Shown piece after piece: positions 5,298 through 35,506 of a DNA stretch of 35,850 nt (its first letter is position 1; the number at the start of each line of letters is the position of its first letter). The DNA comes from a virus. Under the pieces are notes generated by a model. It was not told the origin of the DNA. It saw only the letters and a program-made list of their open reading frames with translations, and did not search any database. The DNA is taken from positions 1-35,850 of IMG/VR virus record IMGVR_UViG_3300032093_000420; one strand, given 5' to 3'. A program made the position numbers and the translations under genes.

Positions 5298-7444
5298 TGC
5301 CAATTAATTTTCCAAATAATCCGTCATTAAATCAATTATACGACTACGATAATAAAACGTGGGAATGGAATGGTGTATATTGGGAAGTTTATTCTGCGCT
5401 TACAAGTTATGTTTCAACTTCAACATTTAATAATTATACAGGTGTAACTCAACCTTTAATTTATAATTCAATTACAGGTGGAACATATTCAGGTGGAACA
5501 CTTTATTTAATAAATAATTCGGGAGCAACAATCCAAATAACAGGGTTTACCGCAGGTGGATTATCAGGAGATTATTTACCTTTAAGTGGTGGTACAGTTT
5601 CAGGCGGAACTAGATTTACAAGTGGATTGAGTGCAAACACAATATCGGCAACAACTTACCTTAATTTACCTGTTGATGTTTTTGTAACGGGTGGAACTTA
5701 TACAAGTGGTGAAATAACATTTAGGAATATAACTGGCGGAACTTTTACCGTAACAGGAATACCAAGTGGTAATGGTGGTGGAGGTGGTATTGTTTACTAT
5801 TTGAATTTATCTAATTCGCAAACTCCTTATAGGGAATTTAGCCCAATACCAACAACCGCCGCACAACAATCAAGTGGTGTTAGTATTTCAAATGGATCTA
5901 CCGCAACTATAGCAGAATTTTTAACTCCGGTTGGATATCCGAACGCTTTAATATTACCCGGTGGTATTTGGTCTTTTTATTTACATTCTAATAAGTCAAA
6001 CTCAAACGCAATTTTTCAAATATTTGCAGAAGTTTATAAAAGAACTAGTGGAGGAACTGAAACTTTTTTATTTCAAACTGACTCTGAAAGTGTTTTATCA
6101 AATAGTCCGGCAATTGAGATGCAAATTTGTGACGCATATTTTAGTGGGACTCCACTAAATGTGAGTGATAGGTTATTAGTAAAAGTAAGAGCAACAAACA
6201 CATCTAATCAAACACATACGATTACCCTATTTACCGAAGGATCACAACAGTATTCATATGCAACGACAACCTTTTCAATATTAGGATTAACTTGTGATAA
6301 TCTAAGTGGTTGTAGTGTAATTCAAACAATACAGAGTGATATTTCAAACAAATATGATAAAAGTGGTGGAACAATTAATGGAAATGCGTTTATAAATGGG
6401 GGATTAACGGCAACGACAATATCTGCAACAACTTACCAAAACCTACCTACTGATGTAAGAGTAACAGGTGCTACATATTCTGACAATACATTTACTTTTA
6501 TTAACAACACTGGTGGTACCTTTGATGTTTCATTTAATACCGTTACAGGACTGACAGTTAATGGTGATTTATTTATAACAGGAAATACATTTACTGATAC
6601 AATATCTGCAACAACTTACCAAAACCTACCTACTGATGTAAGAGTAACAGGTGCTACATATTCTGACAATACATTTACTTTTATTAACAACACTGGTGGT
6701 ACCTTTGATGTTTCATTTAATACCGTTACAGGATTAACTGCGAACACAATATCGGCAACGACATATCAAAATTTACCAGTAAGTGCCGTCACATCAGGTT
6801 CAGGTATATCAGCAGTAACAAGTAATGGTGTAGTAACTGTTACAAATTTATCACCAGACCAAACTGTTGTAATTACAGGTGGAACAAACATACAAATAGA
6901 AGGATCCTATCCGAATTTTGGGGTTAATTTTACGGGTGCTACAGGTGGTGGAGGAAGTTTTACGGGTGGTACTGTAAGTGGTGAAACCAATTTCACAAAT
7001 GGATTAACGGCAAATACAATATCAGCAACAACAATAACAGGAGATACTTATTTTGGTGATGGATCAAATTTAACGGGAATACCAAGAAATGGACAAATTA
7101 TATCAATTTTTGATGGTCTTGGTGGAGTTGTGCAAACAGGTATAGGGAGAAATTATATTACCATTCCATACACCGGAACTTTAACAGGCTGGACAATCTT
7201 CTCAAGTGTTGTGGGAACAATAGATATTGATTTTTATGATGATAATTATGCAAATTTTCCTCCAACAAGTGCTGATACTATTTTCACTTCAATAAATAGA
7301 CCTAAACTCACCAATACAAATAAAAATCAGGCAACGGGTTTGAATATTTCTTTAACATCGGGTGATATATTAATACCTGAAGTTTTAAGTGTTACAGGAT
7401 GCACAAACGTTGTTGTTAATTTACAAATTATTAGAACGACATGA
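5297..7444 (+). CDS. Tail fibre protein with internal duplication
   Basis: 715 residues. The N-terminus PINFPNNPSLNQLYDYDNKT WEWNG (WxWNG-type) is a common phage fibre/structural opening. Then come Gly/Thr/Asn-rich repeats: SGLSANTISATTYLNLPVDV, TGGTYxSGE and two identical 45-residue units. A non-repetitive domain (about residues 170-340) separates two repeat regions, and a C-terminal domain (about 590-715) has the look of a receptor-binding tip. It shares the ITGGTYSGGTLYLINNSGAT unit with the fibre at 2047, so these genes exchange modules. Its TAATG start overlaps the previous stop by 1 nt and it ends in ATGA with the next gene. Confidence 0.75.
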   Translation: MPINFPNNPSLNQLYDYDNKTWEWNGVYWEVYSALTSYVSTSTFNNYTGVTQPLIYNSITGGTYSGGTLYLINNSGATIQITGFTAGGLSGDYLPLSGGTVSGGTRFTSGLSANTISATTYLNLPVDVFVTGGTYTSGEITFRNITGGTFTVTGIPSGNGGGGGIVYYLNLSNSQTPYREFSPIPTTAAQQSSGVSISNGSTATIAEFLTPVGYPNALILPGGIWSFYLHSNKSNSNAIFQIFAEVYKRTSGGTETFLFQTDSESVLSNSPAIEMQICDAYFSGTPLNVSDRLLVKVRATNTSNQTHTITLFTEGSQQYSYATTTFSILGLTCDNLSGCSVIQTIQSDISNKYDKSGGTINGNAFINGGLTATTISATTYQNLPTDVRVTGATYSDNTFTFINNTGGTFDVSFNTVTGLTVNGDLFITGNTFTDTISATTYQNLPTDVRVTGATYSDNTFTFINNTGGTFDVSFNTVTGLTANTISATTYQNLPVSAVTSGSGISAVTSNGVVTVTNLSPDQTVVITGGTNIQIEGSYPNFGVNFTGATGGGGSFTGGTVSGETNFTNGLTANTISATTITGDTYFGDGSNLTGIPRNGQIISIFDGLGGVVQTGIGRNYITIPYTGTLTGWTIFSSVVGTIDIDFYDDNYANFPPTSADTIFTSINRPKLTNTNKNQATGLNISLTSGDILIPEVLSVTGCTNVVVNLQIIRTT
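6416..6733 (+). repeat. 135-bp direct repeat in fibre gene
   Basis: The stretch from ACAATATCTGCAACAACTTA to ACCGTTACAGGA occurs at 6416-6550 and again at 6599-6733 (period 183 bp, in frame). By eye the two copies are identical at the nucleotide level, including third codon positions. This indicates a very recent duplication or ongoing conversion. Confidence 0.9.
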
Positions 7445-14962: not shown

Positions 14963-15850
14963 TTAATAATATTTTAAAACTGAACCATCTTCAAAAATCA
15001 ATATTTTAAGACCACCATAATTAACATCAACAATATTTCCCATAATATCAAAAATTTTAACAGGTTTTTTTTGAATTGTATTAACATATATTGGTTCATA
15101 TATTTTAAACGACCCGTTAAGATCAACCTGAGTTAATCTATAATATGAAATACCATCAAAAGGAAATTTATCAAAATATTTATATTCTTTTTTAGTTGTG
15201 CTATAAACAGAGGTCTTGATTTTCGTTAGATATGCGAAGGTAACTAAATCTTTTGATTTTTCCAAAATAAAATAATCGGAGTTTGTCTCACTCATTGTAA
15301 CCCACTTAGTTATAACTCCACCATATGTTGGTGTTGCTTCAAATGAGGATAATTCAACAGGTAATTGCGTTGACTCAACCCAATATGGACATATTGATGA
15401 TATCCCCTGACAAAAAAAACCTCCTGATGCACTTCCAGTAACACACCAAGAATAATTATGACCAATAATTAAATTTGCAAAAAATTGACCATCTCCAACC
15501 GTATAATCATCCGTTTTATCGCAAAGCGTTAATTGACTGAAAGATACATTACTACAACCCAAAGATGTAAAAGCAAAATTTAAATAAACACCATTACTTT
15601 GTGCTGTAAAATCAAAACAAAATGTAAATGTTTTTTCAGGTTTTGGTAACAAATAACAATATCCGTTTTGTAACAAAAAATCATATGTTGGTATTGGATT
15701 ATCTATGAACTTTACAGGGCCTATTAATGTATCACATATATTTGACTGCGAACCCGACGACAACATCTCAATGTCAAAAGTTTGCCCTTTTTGTGCTAAA
15801 ATAGAATTAGAAAAAGTAAATAGTAATATAAGTAAAAATAGGGATTTCAT
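14963..15850 (-). CDS. Exported Bacteroidota-type surface/secreted protein
   Basis: 295 residues from ATG 15850. The signal peptide MKSLFLLILLFTFSNSILAQ ends before Gln/Lys, as is common in Bacteroidota. Residues about 25-170 form a Cys-containing beta domain. The C-terminal half (LPVELSSFEATPTYGGVITK, SETNSDYFILEKSKD, ISYYRLTQVDLNGSF) closely matches the region that precedes the sorting domain in Bacteroidota secreted proteins, and the tail (KIFDIMGNIV ... IFEDGSVLKYY) resembles a short T9SS-type C-terminal signal. It is therefore likely exported to the cell surface. TATTTAT-TGAT-ATG lies at the start. Its role in infection is unknown; surface alteration is a guess. Confidence 0.75.
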   Translation of the reverse strand: MKSLFLLILLFTFSNSILAQKGQTFDIEMLSSGSQSNICDTLIGPVKFIDNPIPTYDFLLQNGYCYLLPKPEKTFTFCFDFTAQSNGVYLNFAFTSLGCSNVSFSQLTLCDKTDDYTVGDGQFFANLIIGHNYSWCVTGSASGGFFCQGISSICPYWVESTQLPVELSSFEATPTYGGVITKWVTMSETNSDYFILEKSKDLVTFAYLTKIKTSVYSTTKKEYKYFDKFPFDGISYYRLTQVDLNGSFKIYEPIYVNTIQKKPVKIFDIMGNIVDVNYGGLKILIFEDGSVLKYY

Positions 15851-22242: not shown

Positions 22243-23055
22243 ATGTTGAAATTAGGAATGAAAGGTGATGACGTTAAGTTATTACAAACAAAATTAGGTA
22301 TAACGGCTGATGGTGATTTTGGTCCAAAAACCGAAAAGGCTTTAAAGGAATGGCAAACAAAAAATGGTTTGACCGCAGATGGGGTTGCCGGATCTGCAAC
22401 TTTATCAAAATTAGGTATTTTATTAAAAGAAGATGTTTTAATTCAACCAAGCAATTCTTTAAATTATCAAAAACTAAGTGGTATAATACCAACAACAGTG
22501 TTATTAGAAATTCCAGAGACTGCATCTAAATTTAATATCACAACAAATTTAAGATTGGCGCATTTTTTAGCCCAATGTGCTCACGAAAGTGGTAATTTTA
22601 GATTAACAAATGAAAATCTAAATTACTCCCCTGAAGGATTAAGAAAAACATTCGGAAAGTATTTTCCAGGAAACTTATCTGAAACATATGCTAGACAACC
22701 CGAAAAAATTGCATCAAGAGTTTATGGAGGTAGAATGGGAAATGGTGATGAATCAACAAAAGATGGTTGGAAATATCGTGGGAGAGGATACATACAGCTT
22801 ACAGGAAAAGAAAACTATAGAAATTTTTCAAGATTTATAGGTGAAGATTGTGTCGCAAATCCTGATTTAGTATCGTTAAAATATCCGTTAGCATCTGCAG
22901 CATTTTTCTTTAATAGTAATAATCTTTGGTCAATTTGTGATAGAGGTGCCGATGAAGCAACGATAACAGAAGTGACAAGAAGAGTAAATGGGGGAACAAA
23001 TGGTCTTGCAGATAGGATTAAAAAATTCAGAGATTTTTATGAATTATTGACCTAA
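22243..23055 (+). CDS. Endolysin: peptidoglycan-binding domain plus GH19 chitinase-like hydrolase
   Basis: 270 residues. Residues 1-58 are a PG_binding_1 domain: GMKGDDVKLLQTKLGI, DGDFGPKTEKALKEWQ and TADGVAGSATL. Residues about 80-270 are GH19-like: the catalytic Glu is E115 in CAHESGNF, with the partner acid in the following ENLNYSPEGL stretch, then RVYGGRMGNGDE, YRGRGYIQLTG and the terminal RRVNGGTNGLADR. Phage GH19 enzymes act as muramidase-type endolysins. No signal peptide and no nearby holin were recognised. The stop overlaps the convergent tagged gene by 3 bp. It probably works at exit. Confidence 0.88.
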   Translation: MLKLGMKGDDVKLLQTKLGITADGDFGPKTEKALKEWQTKNGLTADGVAGSATLSKLGILLKEDVLIQPSNSLNYQKLSGIIPTTVLLEIPETASKFNITTNLRLAHFLAQCAHESGNFRLTNENLNYSPEGLRKTFGKYFPGNLSETYARQPEKIASRVYGGRMGNGDESTKDGWKYRGRGYIQLTGKENYRNFSRFIGEDCVANPDLVSLKYPLASAAFFFNSNNLWSICDRGADEATITEVTRRVNGGTNGLADRIKKFRDFYELLT

Positions 23056-29654: not shown

Positions 29655-30059
29655 ATGAAAACCATTCTGTCCATATTATTTTTTGTTATAGTTAAATTAT
29701 CATATTCTCAAATTTTTATCGTTCAATATGATACCATAACTCATTACACTTGTAAAAAAAATATGACAATTGAGGATATGGTTAGAACTAAGGATTTTGA
29801 TATTATTGAAATGTTTTCGGATCCTGGTTTTATTTGCATAAATACAGAATCAATGATGTTCTATGGTAGAAATGGAGAATTCACCATTTCAAAAGTTTTG
29901 GATAAAGAAAAATCCATTGATATTATGTTTGGGGATGAAACCCGTTTAACGATCAGAAAGAGTTTTGACTTAACGTATGTTATGGTCATTCAAGAAGTCA
30001 ATCCCAAAGGTGACAAAAAACACATTTATAGCTTTTCAAATGTTAAATTTGTTAAGTAA
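29655..30059 (+). CDS. Exported protein, unknown
   Basis: 134 residues. Signal peptide MKTILSILFFVIVKLSYSQ ends before Ile with the Bacteroidota-like SxSQ junction. The mature part alternates polar and hydrophobic residues (EFTISKVLDKEKSIDIMFGD) and ends KKHIYSFSNVKFVK. It has only two Cys after cleavage. It stands alone on the plus strand in a minus-strand region and is bracketed by G-rich direct repeats, so it may be a recent insertion. No family recognised. Confidence 0.65.
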   Translation: MKTILSILFFVIVKLSYSQIFIVQYDTITHYTCKKNMTIEDMVRTKDFDIIEMFSDPGFICINTESMMFYGRNGEFTISKVLDKEKSIDIMFGDETRLTIRKSFDLTYVMVIQEVNPKGDKKHIYSFSNVKFVK

Positions 30060-30535: not shown

Positions 30536-30907
30536 CTATCTTCCAATTTGTTTTGCCTGTCGCCTTAATTCCTTAGCTCTAAATTCCAATTCTCTAGCTT
30601 GTCTTAATAGAGAATTTATTTCTTCAGCAGTTTCAGGTGTCATATATTCAATATAATCCGCCATATGACGATTATGTATACCTGACAAAAATTTTTTATT
30701 TGGTATTTTATTAATCTTAACATATTGACCATCTTTCATTAAATGCATAAATTTACCTTGACCCTTATTTACAAGAATCTCAGCATCCCAAGTTCCAGTA
30801 TCATCAATATCACTTTTATTAATAATCCTCATTTTAGGTTCCTCATTAAGGATACGTTTAATAACATTTGTTAAATCTGATTCGGTTAATTTAATTATCT
30901 TTTTCAT
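30536..30907 (-). CDS. Small tagged protein, RLTESDL group
   Basis: 123 residues from ATG 30907; a Met four codons upstream (30919) overlaps the previous stop as ATGA and is an equally possible start. Tag MKKIIKLTESDLTNVIKRIL then NEE: first L-T-E before Ser, second L-N-E before Glu. The body (MHLMKDGQYVKINKIPNKKF) and the helical end EINSLLRQARELEFRAKELR resemble the next protein. A probable paralogue of it. Confidence 0.62.
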   Translation of the reverse strand: MKKIIKLTESDLTNVIKRILNEEPKMRIINKSDIDDTGTWDAEILVNKGQGKFMHLMKDGQYVKINKIPNKKFLSGIHNRHMADYIEYMTPETAEEINSLLRQARELEFRAKELRRQAKQIGR

Positions 30908-30915
30908 ATTCAAAA

Positions 30916-31287
30916 TCATTTAATAATCTTTTGTTCAAGGACTCCAATTAGTTGTTTTTTATAAAGACCGATTATTTTTATATACTCAGAAATTAAATTG
31001 TTTATATTATCTGTTAATCTTTGAATCAATTCCAATTCACGTTCATTTAAAAAATAAAAAGTTGTTTTGGGTAGATCACCCTTCAAATCCTTAACCTTAA
31101 CTATTTTATAATCCCCATCTTTACTTAAATCCAAATAATACGGGGTATAACCTTTTTCAATAAATTCTAAGTTTGAAGCGTTTGAAATTTGGGAACCAAA
31201 TACAATCCTATCATTCTTGGATTCGGTGATCACCCTTTTAACGATATTTGTTAAATCGTGCTCAGTTAATTTAATTATCTTTTTCAT
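30916..31287 (-). CDS. Small tagged protein, RLTESDL group
   Basis: 123 residues from ATG 31287. Tag MKKIIKLTEHDLTNIVKRVI then TES: L-T-E before His and I-T-E before Ser. The body DLSKDGDYKIVKVKDLKGDL parallels the L-x-KDG-x-Y of its neighbour, and both end in a long Leu/Glu/Arg helix. TATTTATG-TTAT-ATG lies at the start. Function unknown; probably virion-loaded if the tag idea is right. Confidence 0.64.
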   Translation of the reverse strand: MKKIIKLTEHDLTNIVKRVITESKNDRIVFGSQISNASNLEFIEKGYTPYYLDLSKDGDYKIVKVKDLKGDLPKTTFYFLNERELELIQRLTDNINNLISEYIKIIGLYKKQLIGVLEQKIIK

Positions 31288-31292
31288 ATAAC

Positions 31293-31544: not shown

Positions 31545-31656
31545 AGGTTTAAATATATGTTTTCATAAAAAAATTTAATAAAATTTAAGATTAAGCGATT
31601 GTAATTGATTGATTTTATTGATATTGAAGAAAGGTGTGTTTATATAATAGTTAGGT

Positions 31657-31878: not shown

Positions 31879-31896
31879 AAACAAATTAATGACAAA

Positions 31897-31952
31897 ACCT
31901 AACAAATGATAAACAACATTAAAACGATTGTTTATCATCGGACGTTATGTGT
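31897..31952 (-). repeat. attC-like site 1, 3' of gene 31960-32226
   Basis: In plus orientation ACCTAAC, ATGATAAAC, a 15-nt loop holding ACATTAAAACGAT, GTTTATCAT, then CGTTATGTGTAAT. The arms pair over 9 bp. Read on the minus strand the end is GTTAGGT, an exact GTTRRRY, and the other end is the AAC of ACATAACG. The site starts just after the gene's stop, as in an integron cassette. Confidence 0.65.
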
Positions 31953-31959
31953 AATGTTT

Positions 31960-32226
31960 TTACTCTTCCCAATCTCTGTTTATATATGAAAGTATATCTT
32001 TGGTTTCTTCACAAGTTTTACCAATGAAGTTTTCTAATTTACATTTATGTTCATTTTCATAATGTTGAATCCAATTATCAACACCAAAGATAACTTTCAT
32101 TCTATCATTATATTCTTTTCTAAACATTTCTATGTTGTCCAAACTCAAAACACTACACATAACTTCAGATATATGTAATTTTTTATCTGTACTATCAAGT
32201 TCCGAGTTCTTATTATCTTTATTCAT
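31960..32226 (-). CDS. Cassette-type small protein, unknown
   Basis: 88 residues: MNKDNKNSELDSTDKKLHIS, EVMCSVLSLDNIEMFRKEYN, DRMKVIFGVDNWIQHYENEH and NFIGKTCEETKDILSYINRD. It is acidic and helical, without tag or signal peptide. It is followed within 8 nt by attC-like site 1 and has no obvious promoter, which are features of integron cassette genes. No function recognised. Confidence 0.55.
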   Translation of the reverse strand: MNKDNKNSELDSTDKKLHISEVMCSVLSLDNIEMFRKEYNDRMKVIFGVDNWIQHYENEHKCKLENFIGKTCEETKDILSYINRDWEE

Positions 32227-32290
32227 TATCTTTAAGTTTATTGTTTCAATTTAAGAAAAAACTACATATATCTGTAATAGTTATAAAACA

Positions 32291-32491
32291 TTATAAACGA
32301 CCACCCCATTCAAATTTTATATCATCAATATTATAGTCAATCCCATAATCTTGCTTCAATATATCAACTGCTTTTAGTTTTGCTTCATTTTCATTTGAAA
32401 CAATACCACCTAATCTAACTTCTTTTCCATTTATAGTCATACTGTGATTAGTTCCAGCAAAACTTCCGTTCCAATAAAATTTGATTTCCAT
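32291..32491 (-). CDS. Small protein, unknown, cassette region
   Basis: 66 residues: MEIKFYWNGSFAGTNHSMTI, NGKEVRLGGIVSNENEAKLK and AVDILKQDYGIDYNIDDIKF, ending EWGGRL. It is a compact alpha/beta domain with a Gly-rich turn. Its start lies 13 nt from the GTTATAA end of attC-like site 2, as expected for a cassette gene beginning just after the preceding attC. No clear attC is seen after its own stop. Function unknown. Confidence 0.55.
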   Translation of the reverse strand: MEIKFYWNGSFAGTNHSMTINGKEVRLGGIVSNENEAKLKAVDILKQDYGIDYNIDDIKFEWGGRL

Positions 32492-32503
32492 ACAAATAAC
32501 GTT

Positions 32504-32593
32504 TTATAACAAGGTATATGTGAAATACCTCATAAAGTTTCTACTAATTATTTAAGTTTGTCGTTAGGTACTTCACATATACCCAACCGTTAG
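32504..32593 (-). repeat. attC-like site 2, 3' of gene 32590-32838
   Basis: Plus orientation: TTATAAC, AAGGTATATGTGAAATACCT, 35-nt loop, AGGTACTTCACATATACC, CAACCGTTAG. The arms of 18 nt pair with one mismatch. The minus-strand end is GTTATAA. The site overlaps the stop codon of the cassette gene (TAA at 32590-32592). Confidence 0.65.
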
Positions 32594-32838
32594 CGGTAAT
32601 TTTTAGAACGTCTATATTCCAAATAACCATTGCAAAAACAAATAGTTGTCCAACTAATTGACAATGCCATAATAAACCAATCATCATTCCTAAGTGCTTT
32701 ATCGTAGTTTTTTACAATGGTTAAAAATCCAGCAGATATAATACTACCGAACATAAATAAACCTATGTACTTTAAAACTACCGCTAACAGCACATTGCCA
32801 AAAGTGGGGGTTTCGTTTTTCAAATCAACATTTTTCAT
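32590..32838 (-). CDS. Small membrane protein, cassette type
   Basis: 82 residues. After a polar N-terminus (MKNVDLKNETPTFGN) there are two membrane helices: VLLAVVLKYIGLFMFGSIIS with AGFLTIV, and WFIMALSISWTTICFCNGYL. It ends EYRRSKNYR. Its stop overlaps attC-like site 2. Small two-helix membrane proteins are common in integron cassettes, and their functions are mostly unknown. An antisense ORF at 32717-32917 is a shadow. Confidence 0.6.
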   Translation of the reverse strand: MKNVDLKNETPTFGNVLLAVVLKYIGLFMFGSIISAGFLTIVKNYDKALRNDDWFIMALSISWTTICFCNGYLEYRRSKNYR

Positions 32839-32867
32839 ATTATCAAGTTTTGTGTTTCAATTAAAAA

Positions 32868-32915
32868 TTAGTGGTATAATGCCCCACCTTCGGCAATCCG
32901 CAAAACGTTATAAGT
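32868..32915. other. GC-rich segment, possible half attC
   Basis: GTGGTATAATGCCCCACC, TTCGGCAATCCGC and AAAACGTTATAAG. It contains an AACGTTATAAG end like those of the attC-like sites but no matching opposite arm, and it is clearly richer in G/C than its surroundings. It sits between two cassette genes, where an attC would be expected. Confidence 0.35.
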
Positions 32916-32919
32916 AATA

Positions 32920-33072
32920 TTATTTTTGTTTTAACTTTTCTAATTTAAAAAATTTTCCACACTCATTACATAGAACATCTATAATAGGTAATTCTTTCTT
33001 ACTATAATCATAATTGAAGTGGAAATTTTCTTCATTTCCACATTTAGGACAAACAATTTTTTCTCCTTCCAT
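32920..33072 (-). CDS. Zinc-ribbon microprotein, cassette type
   Basis: 50 residues: MEGEKIVCPKCGNEENFHFN, then LPIIDVLCNECGKFFKLEK. Two CxxC pairs (C8/C11, C35/C38) give a small zinc ribbon, a fold used for nucleic acid or protein contacts. It starts at ATG 33072, preceded by TATTTTTG at 33097-33104 (TAnnTTTG). It lies between the GC-rich segment and attC-like site 3 and so has the position of a cassette gene. Function unknown. Confidence 0.65.
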   Translation of the reverse strand: MEGEKIVCPKCGNEENFHFNYDYSKKELPIIDVLCNECGKFFKLEKLKQK

Positions 33073-33111
33073 AATTTATAATTTTAATCGGTAAAACAAA
33101 AATAATACAAC

Positions 33112-33163
33112 TTATAACAAGGTATAAACCACATTAAAACGATGCTTTATACCCAACCGTTAG
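33112..33163 (-). repeat. attC-like site 3
   Basis: Plus orientation: TTATAAC, AAGGTATAAA, 17-nt loop with ACATTAAAACGAT, TTTATACC, CAACCGTTAG. The arms pair over 8 bp. The loop shares 13 identical nt with site 1, and the ends match site 2. In cassette order it precedes the zinc-ribbon gene. Confidence 0.65.
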
Positions 33164-33225
33164 AAACAATTAGAGTTGGAAACTTTCAGCGTTTTACAGA
33201 ACTTGTCCAACCTGAACTCTAACTA
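33164..33225. other. ORF-less segment between attC-like sites
   Basis: About 62-75 nt with no ORF. AATTAGAGTTGGA on one side faces AACTCTAACTATTTCTAAC on the other, so the ends can pair as GTTAGAAA-x-A-x-TTAGAGTT. It may be a cassette that lost its gene, a folded regulatory RNA, or another attC remnant. Confidence 0.35.
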
Positions 33226-33320
33226 TTTCTAACAACAAATATACAACATTTTTATCAAACAAAAAAATTAATTTGAAACTTTCTACTAAAAAACGTTATA
33301 TATTTGCAATCGTTATGTGT
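33226..33320 (-). repeat. attC-like site 4, 3' of gene 33330-33590
   Basis: Plus orientation: TTTCTAAC, CAAATATACAAC, 47-nt loop, GTTATATATTTG, CAATCGTTATGTGTAAT. The 12-nt arms pair with one mismatch. CGTTATGTGTAAT is identical to site 1, and like there it precedes the cassette gene's stop by a few nt. Confidence 0.6.
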
Positions 33321-33329
33321 AATAATTTT

Positions 33330-33590
33330 TTACCCACCCACATTGAAAGATTTATAAATTTTACTTGTAAAATCTCTATTTCTCAAATCATTCAACAATA
33401 AACGTATTTCTTCAATACTATCCAAAGTTTCAACACTAAATCTAACTTTTGAATTAGTATCATATAAATCATTAAATTTCTTTATACCATTTTTTAAAAT
33501 AACATCCGATATATCATCCATATTTGACAATGGATATTCAATTGATTCGTTAATGTTAAATCTGACAAATTTTTCAATTTGCTTGTTCAT
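33330..33590 (-). CDS. Tagged protein in a cassette context
   Basis: 86 residues. N-terminus MNKQIEKFVRFNINESIEYP has I-N-E before Ser at residues 13-16, which is the spacing of a T4-like targeting sequence. The rest is acidic (MDDISDVILKNGIKKFNDLY) with an SVETLDSIEEIRLLLNDLRN helix. attC-like site 4 follows its stop within 10 nt. It joins the tag system and the cassette array. Function unknown. Confidence 0.6.
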   Translation of the reverse strand: MNKQIEKFVRFNINESIEYPLSNMDDISDVILKNGIKKFNDLYDTNSKVRFSVETLDSIEEIRLLLNDLRNRDFTSKIYKSFNVGG

Positions 33591-34517: not shown

Positions 34518-34838
34518 TTAAAACCTAACAACTTCCCAAGAAATGTCAGGTCTGTTTTTTGTTCCTCTTTTTACTTTCTTTAAATCCTTCATAGCCTCTT
34601 CCCTTGAGTCATATGATTTTGGGGGATTATCCATTTCTAAATGCATTTTTCTTCTAAACTCAATTGAAGTTGGTATCATGCTATATCCGTCGTCCCCTGT
34701 GTATATAAACATCCCGCGACCACGAATATGGTCGGGGTATGCCACAATATAATATTGGTCTTTGATTTCAGACTCATTAATAATCCTTTTAACCAATCTA
34801 ATTAAATCAGATTCTGTTAATCTTACAACTTTTTTCAT
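34518..34838 (-). CDS. Small tagged protein, RLTESDL group
   Basis: 106 residues from ATG 34838; an upstream extension to 34907 would cover the promoter region and is rejected. Tag MKKVVRLTESDLIRLVKRII then NESEI: L-T-E before Ser and I-N-E before Ser. The body (QYYIVAYPDHIRGRGMFIYT, GDDGYSMIPTSIEFRR) is a small beta domain; the end KRGTKNRPDISWEVVRF is basic. Function unknown. Confidence 0.64.
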   Translation of the reverse strand: MKKVVRLTESDLIRLVKRIINESEIKDQYYIVAYPDHIRGRGMFIYTGDDGYSMIPTSIEFRRKMHLEMDNPPKSYDSREEAMKDLKKVKRGTKNRPDISWEVVRF

Positions 34839-34852
34839 AATATATTTTTGAT

Positions 34853-34939: not shown

Positions 34940-35506
34940 ATGGCGTACAGACCTTACATATGGAGAAAAAATAACCCTGAGAAAAGAACCGAACAAAAAC
35001 GTAGGGAGAAAGTAAGAAGGTTATTAAGAGATAGGGGAATACTACCTGAATCAGGAGAACCTATGAATGAACAACAACAGGAGATATATAACCAAATAGG
35101 CAATAATGACTTTTCATATTGGGATGAGGTTAAGAAGGGAATTAAAAATGATGGGGGTTATGATAAACAAACTTTCACTAAAATAAAACCCCCTGAATAC
35201 GTTATATGGTATAGAGCAAAAGAAAGTTCTAAAAAATATAAGAGAGATTTCGACATAGAAGTTTCAGATATATTCATACCCGAATATTGTCCATACTTGG
35301 GGTTAAAATTAACTACTGATATAAATGATAGGAATAGACCCGATTATTATTCTATAGATAGAATAGACAGTAGTAAGGGTTATGTAAAAGGGAATGTTCA
35401 GATTATCTCTTGGTTAGCAAACACTATGAAAAACAACGCAACGATAGAACAACTTTTGGTTTTTTCTGAAAACGTAATTAAGTTACACAGAGGTCAAATT
35501 TTCTAA
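34940..35506 (+). CDS. HNH/His-Me-finger endonuclease-like protein
   Basis: 188 residues. A basic N-terminus (NPEKRTEQKRREKVRRLLRD) precedes PEYCPYLGLKLTTD and then YYSIDRIDSSKGYVKGNVQI with ISWLANTMKNNATIEQL. The S-I-D-R-I-D..KGY..GN..I.S..AN..K..AT pattern is typical of phage HNH-type endonucleases, with N152 and N161 in conserved places. The Cys pair of classic zinc-stabilised forms is reduced to one Cys (C117). It may be a homing endonuclease or a packaging or restriction-type nuclease. It has a strong Shine-Dalgarno and is flanked by G-rich non-coding DNA. Confidence 0.75.
   Translation: MAYRPYIWRKNNPEKRTEQKRREKVRRLLRDRGILPESGEPMNEQQQEIYNQIGNNDFSYWDEVKKGIKNDGGYDKQTFTKIKPPEYVIWYRAKESSKKYKRDFDIEVSDIFIPEYCPYLGLKLTTDINDRNRPDYYSIDRIDSSKGYVKGNVQIISWLANTMKNNATIEQLLVFSENVIKLHRGQIF

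Follow-up and report, generated by a model that had tools for sequence, protein, structure and literature searches.

The window, by which we mean the whole stretch of 35,850 nucleotides that was analysed (IMG/VR record IMGVR_UViG_3300032093_000420, positions 1–35,850; 30% G+C), contains head and packaging genes together with endolysin genes, which set it in the context of a phage genome; the contig is probably a fragment of that genome. The host of the phage is probably a member of the Bacteroidota, judging by its Bacteroidota relatives. Six hairpin sites were detected with the covariance models R1 and R2 (E, to be read as rough values, from 1.9e-15 to 2.4e-3), all of them on the minus strand, which is that of the genes (Table 1). 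Neither the window nor its twin contig L001 contributed to these models, which were built from hairpins of other phage loci. Their matches within the window were confined to the array region, and those on the plus strand were echoes of the same palindromes.

An earlier note had described here an integron-like cassette array in a phage, based on four palindromes (31897, 32504, 33112, and 33226). These palindromes and their shared strings lie where it placed them, and both the models and the covariation of the stems set them apart from chance. The description itself was borne out by the six sites, the paired cores, and an attI-like end; its extent has to be enlarged, since two sites with long loops had been overlooked and the array reaches the attI-like sequence at 31641–31653. 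An early cut-off of our home-made site scanner lost site 3, which the covariance models picked up. The inner palindrome at 32720–32627 was rejected as a site, its cores pairing with neither neighbour, and an Rfam search over the whole window gave no match. Beyond the attI-like end lies an unrelated gene of 75 aa, not a recombinase, and no recombinase of the array-linked family described below was found in the record; with six sites and no recombinase, the window corresponds to a CALIN (at least two attC, no nearby integrase). At the opposite side, the 86-aa gene either marks where the array ends distally or belongs to a unit that has decayed.

Table 1: Features of the array in the window. CM, covariance model; E-values are rough, and type C has no model of its own.
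Feature	Position	Strand	Remarks
attI-like array end, TAAC followed by TATTATATA	31641..31653	-	sequence TAACTATTATATA, once in window vs 0.02 expected
Cassette gene, 65 aa	31657..31854	-	TAnnTTTG promoter-like string upstream
Hairpin site 1	31896..31951	-	type B; CM R1 E 1.9e-15
Cassette gene, 88 aa	31960..32226	-	predicted hairpin-coded leader MNKDNKNSELDSTDKKLHISEV; alternative in-frame ATG in GTTATG core
Hairpin site, absent from earlier note	32156..32287	-	type C; CM R2 E 2.4e-3; 21-bp stem; loop contains ATG at 32226
Cassette gene, 66 aa	32291..32491	-	from ORF list; domain/PHROG searches gave no function
Hairpin site 2	32503..32596	-	type A; CM R2 E 1.6e-14
Cassette gene, 82 aa, membrane protein	32590..32838	-	predicted start and leader MKNVDLKNETPTFGNVLLAV within hairpin; TAA stop inside R'' core
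Hairpin site, absent from earlier note	32781..32914	-	type C; CM R2 E 1.9e-4; 20-bp stem; long loop contains ATG at 32838
Cassette gene, 50 aa, zinc ribbon-like	32920..33072	-	weak Pfam zinc-ribbon matches; PHROG matches of unknown function
Hairpin site 3	33111..33166	-	type B, short; CM R1 E 9.5e-14
ORF-less mini-unit body	33159..33233	-	GTTAGAAATAGTTAGAGTT ... AACTCTAATTGTTTCTAAC; R'/R'' score 17
Hairpin site 4	33226..33319	-	type A, loop ~40 nt; R'' ACATAAC, R' GTTAGAA; CM R2 E 6.6e-8 and DNA fold
86-aa gene just before first detected hairpin	33330..33590	-	then R''-like ATTACACATAAC; no start core found

Some features outside the array were also observed. There are two separate endolysin-like genes in this one phage (16374–17237, minus strand, and 22243–23055, plus strand). 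The gene at 34940–35506 is Endonuclease VII/HNH-like (phrog_3322, E 8.8e-30); a portion is similar to a gene from a Rhizobium phage, annotated there as a sigma-factor decoy. Three neighbouring genes have in common a start region of 67 nt (30842–30908, 31222–31288, and 34773–34839), which encodes a common N-terminus and is unrelated to the hairpins.

Hairpin sites, cassette units, and reading frames

As in attC, the hairpins of the window are folded imperfect palindromes with conserved AAC/GTT cores and a variable stem. The stems covary: 68 double-change cells were counted in type B, with 99.7% of positions paired, against 13.4 ± 2.7 after shuffling, and 131 in type A (80 nt) against 31.7 ± 5.2. 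In type B the loop CGTTTTAATG is kept while the stem varies by compensating changes, and type A behaves likewise. The cores were invariant across the training sets of the models. Classical attC sites have the core consensus RYYYAAC/GTTRRRY, and extrahelical bases of their L stem select the strand; GTTAGGT fits this consensus and GTTATAA does not, and the consensus L stems of types A and B have no single-base bulge, their asymmetry consisting of a 4-5 nt spacer only.

Comparison by blastn indicated that many phages have blocks around the sites in common, not the cassette genes. Site 2 is ~94–96% identical to sites on several other viral contigs, and the 16-mer CTAACGGTTGGGTATA, which sites 2 and 3 share, recurs in 35 viral DNA stretches, in most of which it is followed by the second arm and GTTA and then mostly by different genes. 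Many matches of this 16-mer in genome contigs were discarded as chance, the second arm being missing. Two uncultured phages of 462 kb and 635 kb (LR756500 and LR745206) carry 94% identical copies of the site 1 region and the site 3 hairpin.

In a cassette that forms a circle, start and end cores would make up one site and are therefore expected to pair. In the six window cassettes the complementarity between the start core (GTTA...) and the own end core (...TAAC) reached 106, whereas permutation gave a mean of 42.9; the true arrangement ranked first among all 720, and pairing was present in all six over 15 to 27 positions. Across the phage arrays, 201 of 257 units scored at least 8, and in a two-strand scan of the array loci 64% of the cassettes reached at least 9, against 6.5% of random pairs. 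The small-gene cassettes of the earlier note are present except that one of them (33233–33159) has no ORF; the 89 nt at this mini-unit are 98% identical in L027 (blastn). The cargo consists of small, mostly unknown genes, with 9 Pfam families matched among 107 cassette ORFs.

Each hairpin had been taken as the 3′ end of the preceding gene, and this part has to be reversed. When the same gene was found in two settings, the upstream hairpin was common and the downstream one was not in 8 pairs, and the opposite occurred in 0; two of the 19 same-gene pairs (L082/L104 and L128/L130) differ in both hairpins. Blocks common to different phages typically run from the TAAC before a hairpin to the TAAC before the next one; they span a hairpin and the gene downstream of it, and therefore the hairpin lies 5′ of its gene. 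With the strand set from the spacer asymmetry, 276 ORFs of the phage arrays are on one strand and 10 on the other. In classical integrons attC is located 3′ of the gene and the ORFs point away from the integrase, a layout that was not found in the phage arrays.

Its position ahead of the gene allows the hairpin to carry signals for translation start. The start codon of the own gene and a leader of ~20 residues, in frame through the GTT core, lie within about half of the long hairpins: where the hairpin of such a unit contains an ATG (76 units), the frame through GTT is 0 in 53, 1 in 18, and 2 in 5. The frame of the loop ATG passes GTT (Val) into the gene, giving leader families such as MNKDNKNTELDNTDKKLHISDV, NLNISDV, and QLNIGAV, and these leaders are presumably translated from the hairpin ATG. 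Two window genes (32226 and 32838) are predicted to start in this way; the leader of the second has a similar motif in L005 (HETPTIGNTLLYAV). With a recombination site that doubles as translation start, cassette genes could stay expressible at any landing place.

Recombinase linkage and exchange of units in related phages

The arrays of L027, L029, and L005 end at a tyrosine recombinase gene. A search with this array-linked recombinase detected 171 relatives among viral contigs (the best 80 were retained), together with 4 of a second type. At least one site was present upstream of the dedicated recombinase, of ~265 aa, in 60 of 70 related viral loci, and across the 70 loci strict sites occurred at 0.69/kb upstream of the recombinase and 0.008/kb downstream, an 86-fold difference; 10 loci had no upstream site, some of them with little upstream sequence in the record. 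TAAC followed by TATTATATA precedes most of the 39 recombinase genes listed, with a variable left side and a conserved right side, and usually sits between the array sites and the recombinase gene. Its conservation in the alignment is partly due to the anchoring pattern, and the raw sequences show the motif as well. In classical integrons attI is located between the integrase and the array; the relatives have a site in this position, and the window has the putative site without the recombinase. The genes flanking the recombinase loci are phage-like (DNA polymerases, DnaB-like helicases, clamp loaders, and a UvsX-like recombinase).

The linked recombinases keep the catalytic residues R, K, H-x-x-R, H, and Y. 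The IntI integrase of classical integrons carries an insertion with the I2 helix, and in the alignment this insertion is absent from the linked recombinases, ~48 residues of IntI4 being missing. The earlier note had proposed to search for an integron integrase, and no IntI-type enzyme passed the cut-off in the window, nor in any of the 32 records searched first, which carried arrays or were candidates; on TIGR02249 the linked recombinases reached 145–151 bits (cut-off 265). They are similar to XerA and Xer-like enzymes in their best NCBIfam model (NF040815) and their best solved structure (4a8e, a XerC-like enzyme), but they differ in remaining below the family cut-off (168–190 bits, cut-off 220) and in being linked to cassette arrays. 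In the trees, IntI (support 100/99) and Xer each formed their own clade, separate from the phage and Bacteroidota enzymes. Among the cultured phages of the collection no close relative of the recombinase was found, the best reaching 39.5%.

It is possible, although we consider it doubtful, that the array of the window is a dead remnant, with units that arrived while the lineage had a recombinase, since lost, and that no longer move. An attI-like end without recombinase and a unit without ORF agree with this, as do other arrays in which the recombinase is missing or broken (three stops in G016; truncated and with a stop in G017). However, all six core pairs and stems are intact, which makes a long decay unlikely, and, since viral records are fragments, the absence of the gene is weak evidence. 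The window has an array with an attI-like end and lacks a recombinase; its cassettes therefore probably rely on mobilisation in trans.

The related-phage comparison called for by the earlier note was answered by breakpoints that fall at the sites, and the mobility of the cassettes is suggested by this comparison. In L089, L099, and L100, whose flanks are 97–99.7% identical, the cassettes follow the orders X-Z-P-Q-R-S-W, P-Q-R-S-W-Y-Z, and X-W-Y-Z, respectively; cassettes were thus gained, lost, and reordered with breakpoints at sites, in these relatives and in L148. In L148 one unit of hairpin and gene is present twice (2476–2869 and 5478–5871), 100% identical, and one copy adjoins the attI-like site, which suggests copying or re-insertion at attI. 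The only close relative of the window phage, L001, represents the same phage and matches it at 100% identity across an overlap of 4,712 bases (blastn); an empty, cassette-free counterpart of the locus was looked for and not found.

Some of the junctions in L089, L099, and L100 lie within identical 48-nt repeats and are therefore also compatible with homologous recombination. One could argue from this that homologous recombination has spread the hairpins as repeats with a regulatory function (promoter, leader, or RNA structure) and that the recombinase has another role; type B bodies are also enriched for the promoter-like string TAnnTTTG (25% vs 6% in shuffled sequences), and long hairpins hold start codons. 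We consider this very improbable. The pairing between the end cores of a unit is unexpected for such repeats, the sites show an 86-fold linkage to a recombinase, and shared blocks stop at a TAAC beyond which hairpins of different types follow, so at those borders there is no homology for exchange.

We therefore regard the region, with high though not full confidence, as a phage-borne, integron-like array whose cassettes are mobile and whose format is inverted. The site structure, core pairing, attI-like site, recombinase linkage, permutation, unit boundaries, and reading frames can all be read from the sequences, each unit consisting of the hairpin, a GTTA core, the small gene, and a TAAC core. 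A mechanism can be proposed on this basis. Two hairpin sites would recombine between TAA and C on the gene strand, a point that corresponds to that between G and TT in classical attC, and the excised unit would be circular; its re-insertion would take place at another site or at the attI-like end TAACTATTATATA. The substrate would be a folded single strand. The Xer/XerA-like tyrosine recombinase of ~265 aa, encoded in many relatives directly beyond the attI-like end, presumably catalyses the exchange; the window phage would depend on a recombinase acting in trans, supplied by the host or by another phage infecting the same cell. The cargo may be of benefit.

Relation to integrons and other known systems

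The arrays resemble classical integrons in the cassette array, the paired end cores, the folded sites, and the attI-like site beside a recombinase transcribed away from the array. Unlike in integrons, the recombinase lacks the IntI insertion, the stems have no bulged bases, and the ORFs are directed at the recombinase, each gene having its hairpin on the 5′ side. The integration of CTX-phi by the host XerC/XerD (PMC4792948) also uses a folded single-strand site without extrahelical bases and Xer-like enzymes without I2 helix, but there is one phage site and no cassette array with its own recombinase.

That phages with attC cassettes are hardly known, as the earlier note put it, was too strong. 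In the part of the work of Qi et al. 2023 (PMC9892861) considered here, CALINs are described in virulent phages, including Polaribacter phage P12002L, with attC sites of divergent direction; IntI1 acted on one of its two sites, recombining the bottom strand of attC2 with attI1. P12002L (L259) was matched by the window-independent models at 30004, 30905, 32219, 38031, 38875, and 39118 (minus strand) and at 15190 (plus strand). Considering that a phage tested with IntI1 contains sites of the family, an integron integrase may be able to act on at least part of the window hairpin family.

By comparison with P12002L, which also has attC-like sites and no integrase in cis, the window could be read as an ordinary CALIN, that is, classical attC cassettes from a host integron, moved by the host IntI and without a system of their own; the published phage CALINs, the recombination of attC2 by IntI1, the sites of the window family in P12002L, and the absence of a recombinase from the window are in its favour. 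We judge this reading unlikely, because in the relatives a dedicated recombinase, not of IntI type, and a specific attI-like end accompany the arrays, the hairpins move with the downstream gene, the ORFs are inverted, and the stems lack the bulged base. The inverted unit, leader-coding loops, attI-like end, and linked non-IntI recombinase are not described in the portion of PMC9892861 on which we draw.

Integron-like arrays were also found in Bacteroidota chromosomes (L229, L232, L233, L240, L246, and other loci), beside recombinases of 280–400 aa, many of which have an extra N-terminal part; related recombinases were present in 94 of 296 sampled Bacteroidota genomes (E ≤ 1e-50). The chromosomal and phage arrays are alike in having a hairpin with an asymmetric 5-nt spacer, which in the chromosomes precedes GTT, and a related recombinase. 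They differ in that the chromosomal recombinase is longer, the array is at its 3′ side (none was found at the 5′ side), and the gene orientation is classical (11 of 13), with hairpins 3′ of the genes. The spacer side and the breakpoint side agree, and turning the gene round in the chromosomal form would give an arrangement like that of the phages.

Integrons are commonly treated as IntI systems. We lean, by a small measure, towards an integron lineage of its own in Bacteroidota and their phages, with Xer-like recombinases without the IntI insertion and bulge-free hairpins, in which the phage site supplies start codon and leader. Integrons are reported to be nearly absent from Bacteroidetes (IntegronFinder 2, PMC9024848), and in the open-access PMC literature no description was found of Bacteroidota integrons, integron-like phage arrays, or leader-coding attC of this kind, and the recombinase in cis, the hairpins that code for leaders, and the inverted layout appear to be undescribed. 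It has been speculated that the origin of integrons was viral and Xer-like (PMC4792948). If the lineage is real, it would stand close to the speculated ancestor, a Xer enzyme plus a hairpin, and to a viral origin, for which it would offer a testable model, and phages with their own recombinase, attI-like site, and arrays would constitute a second, virus-borne cassette-exchange system beside IntI.

The recombinases of L087, L131, L082, and others have at least two N-terminal versions on nearly the same catalytic domain. In P12002L, the sites outnumber the two published attC, and several of them adjoin methyltransferase and Mom-like genes.
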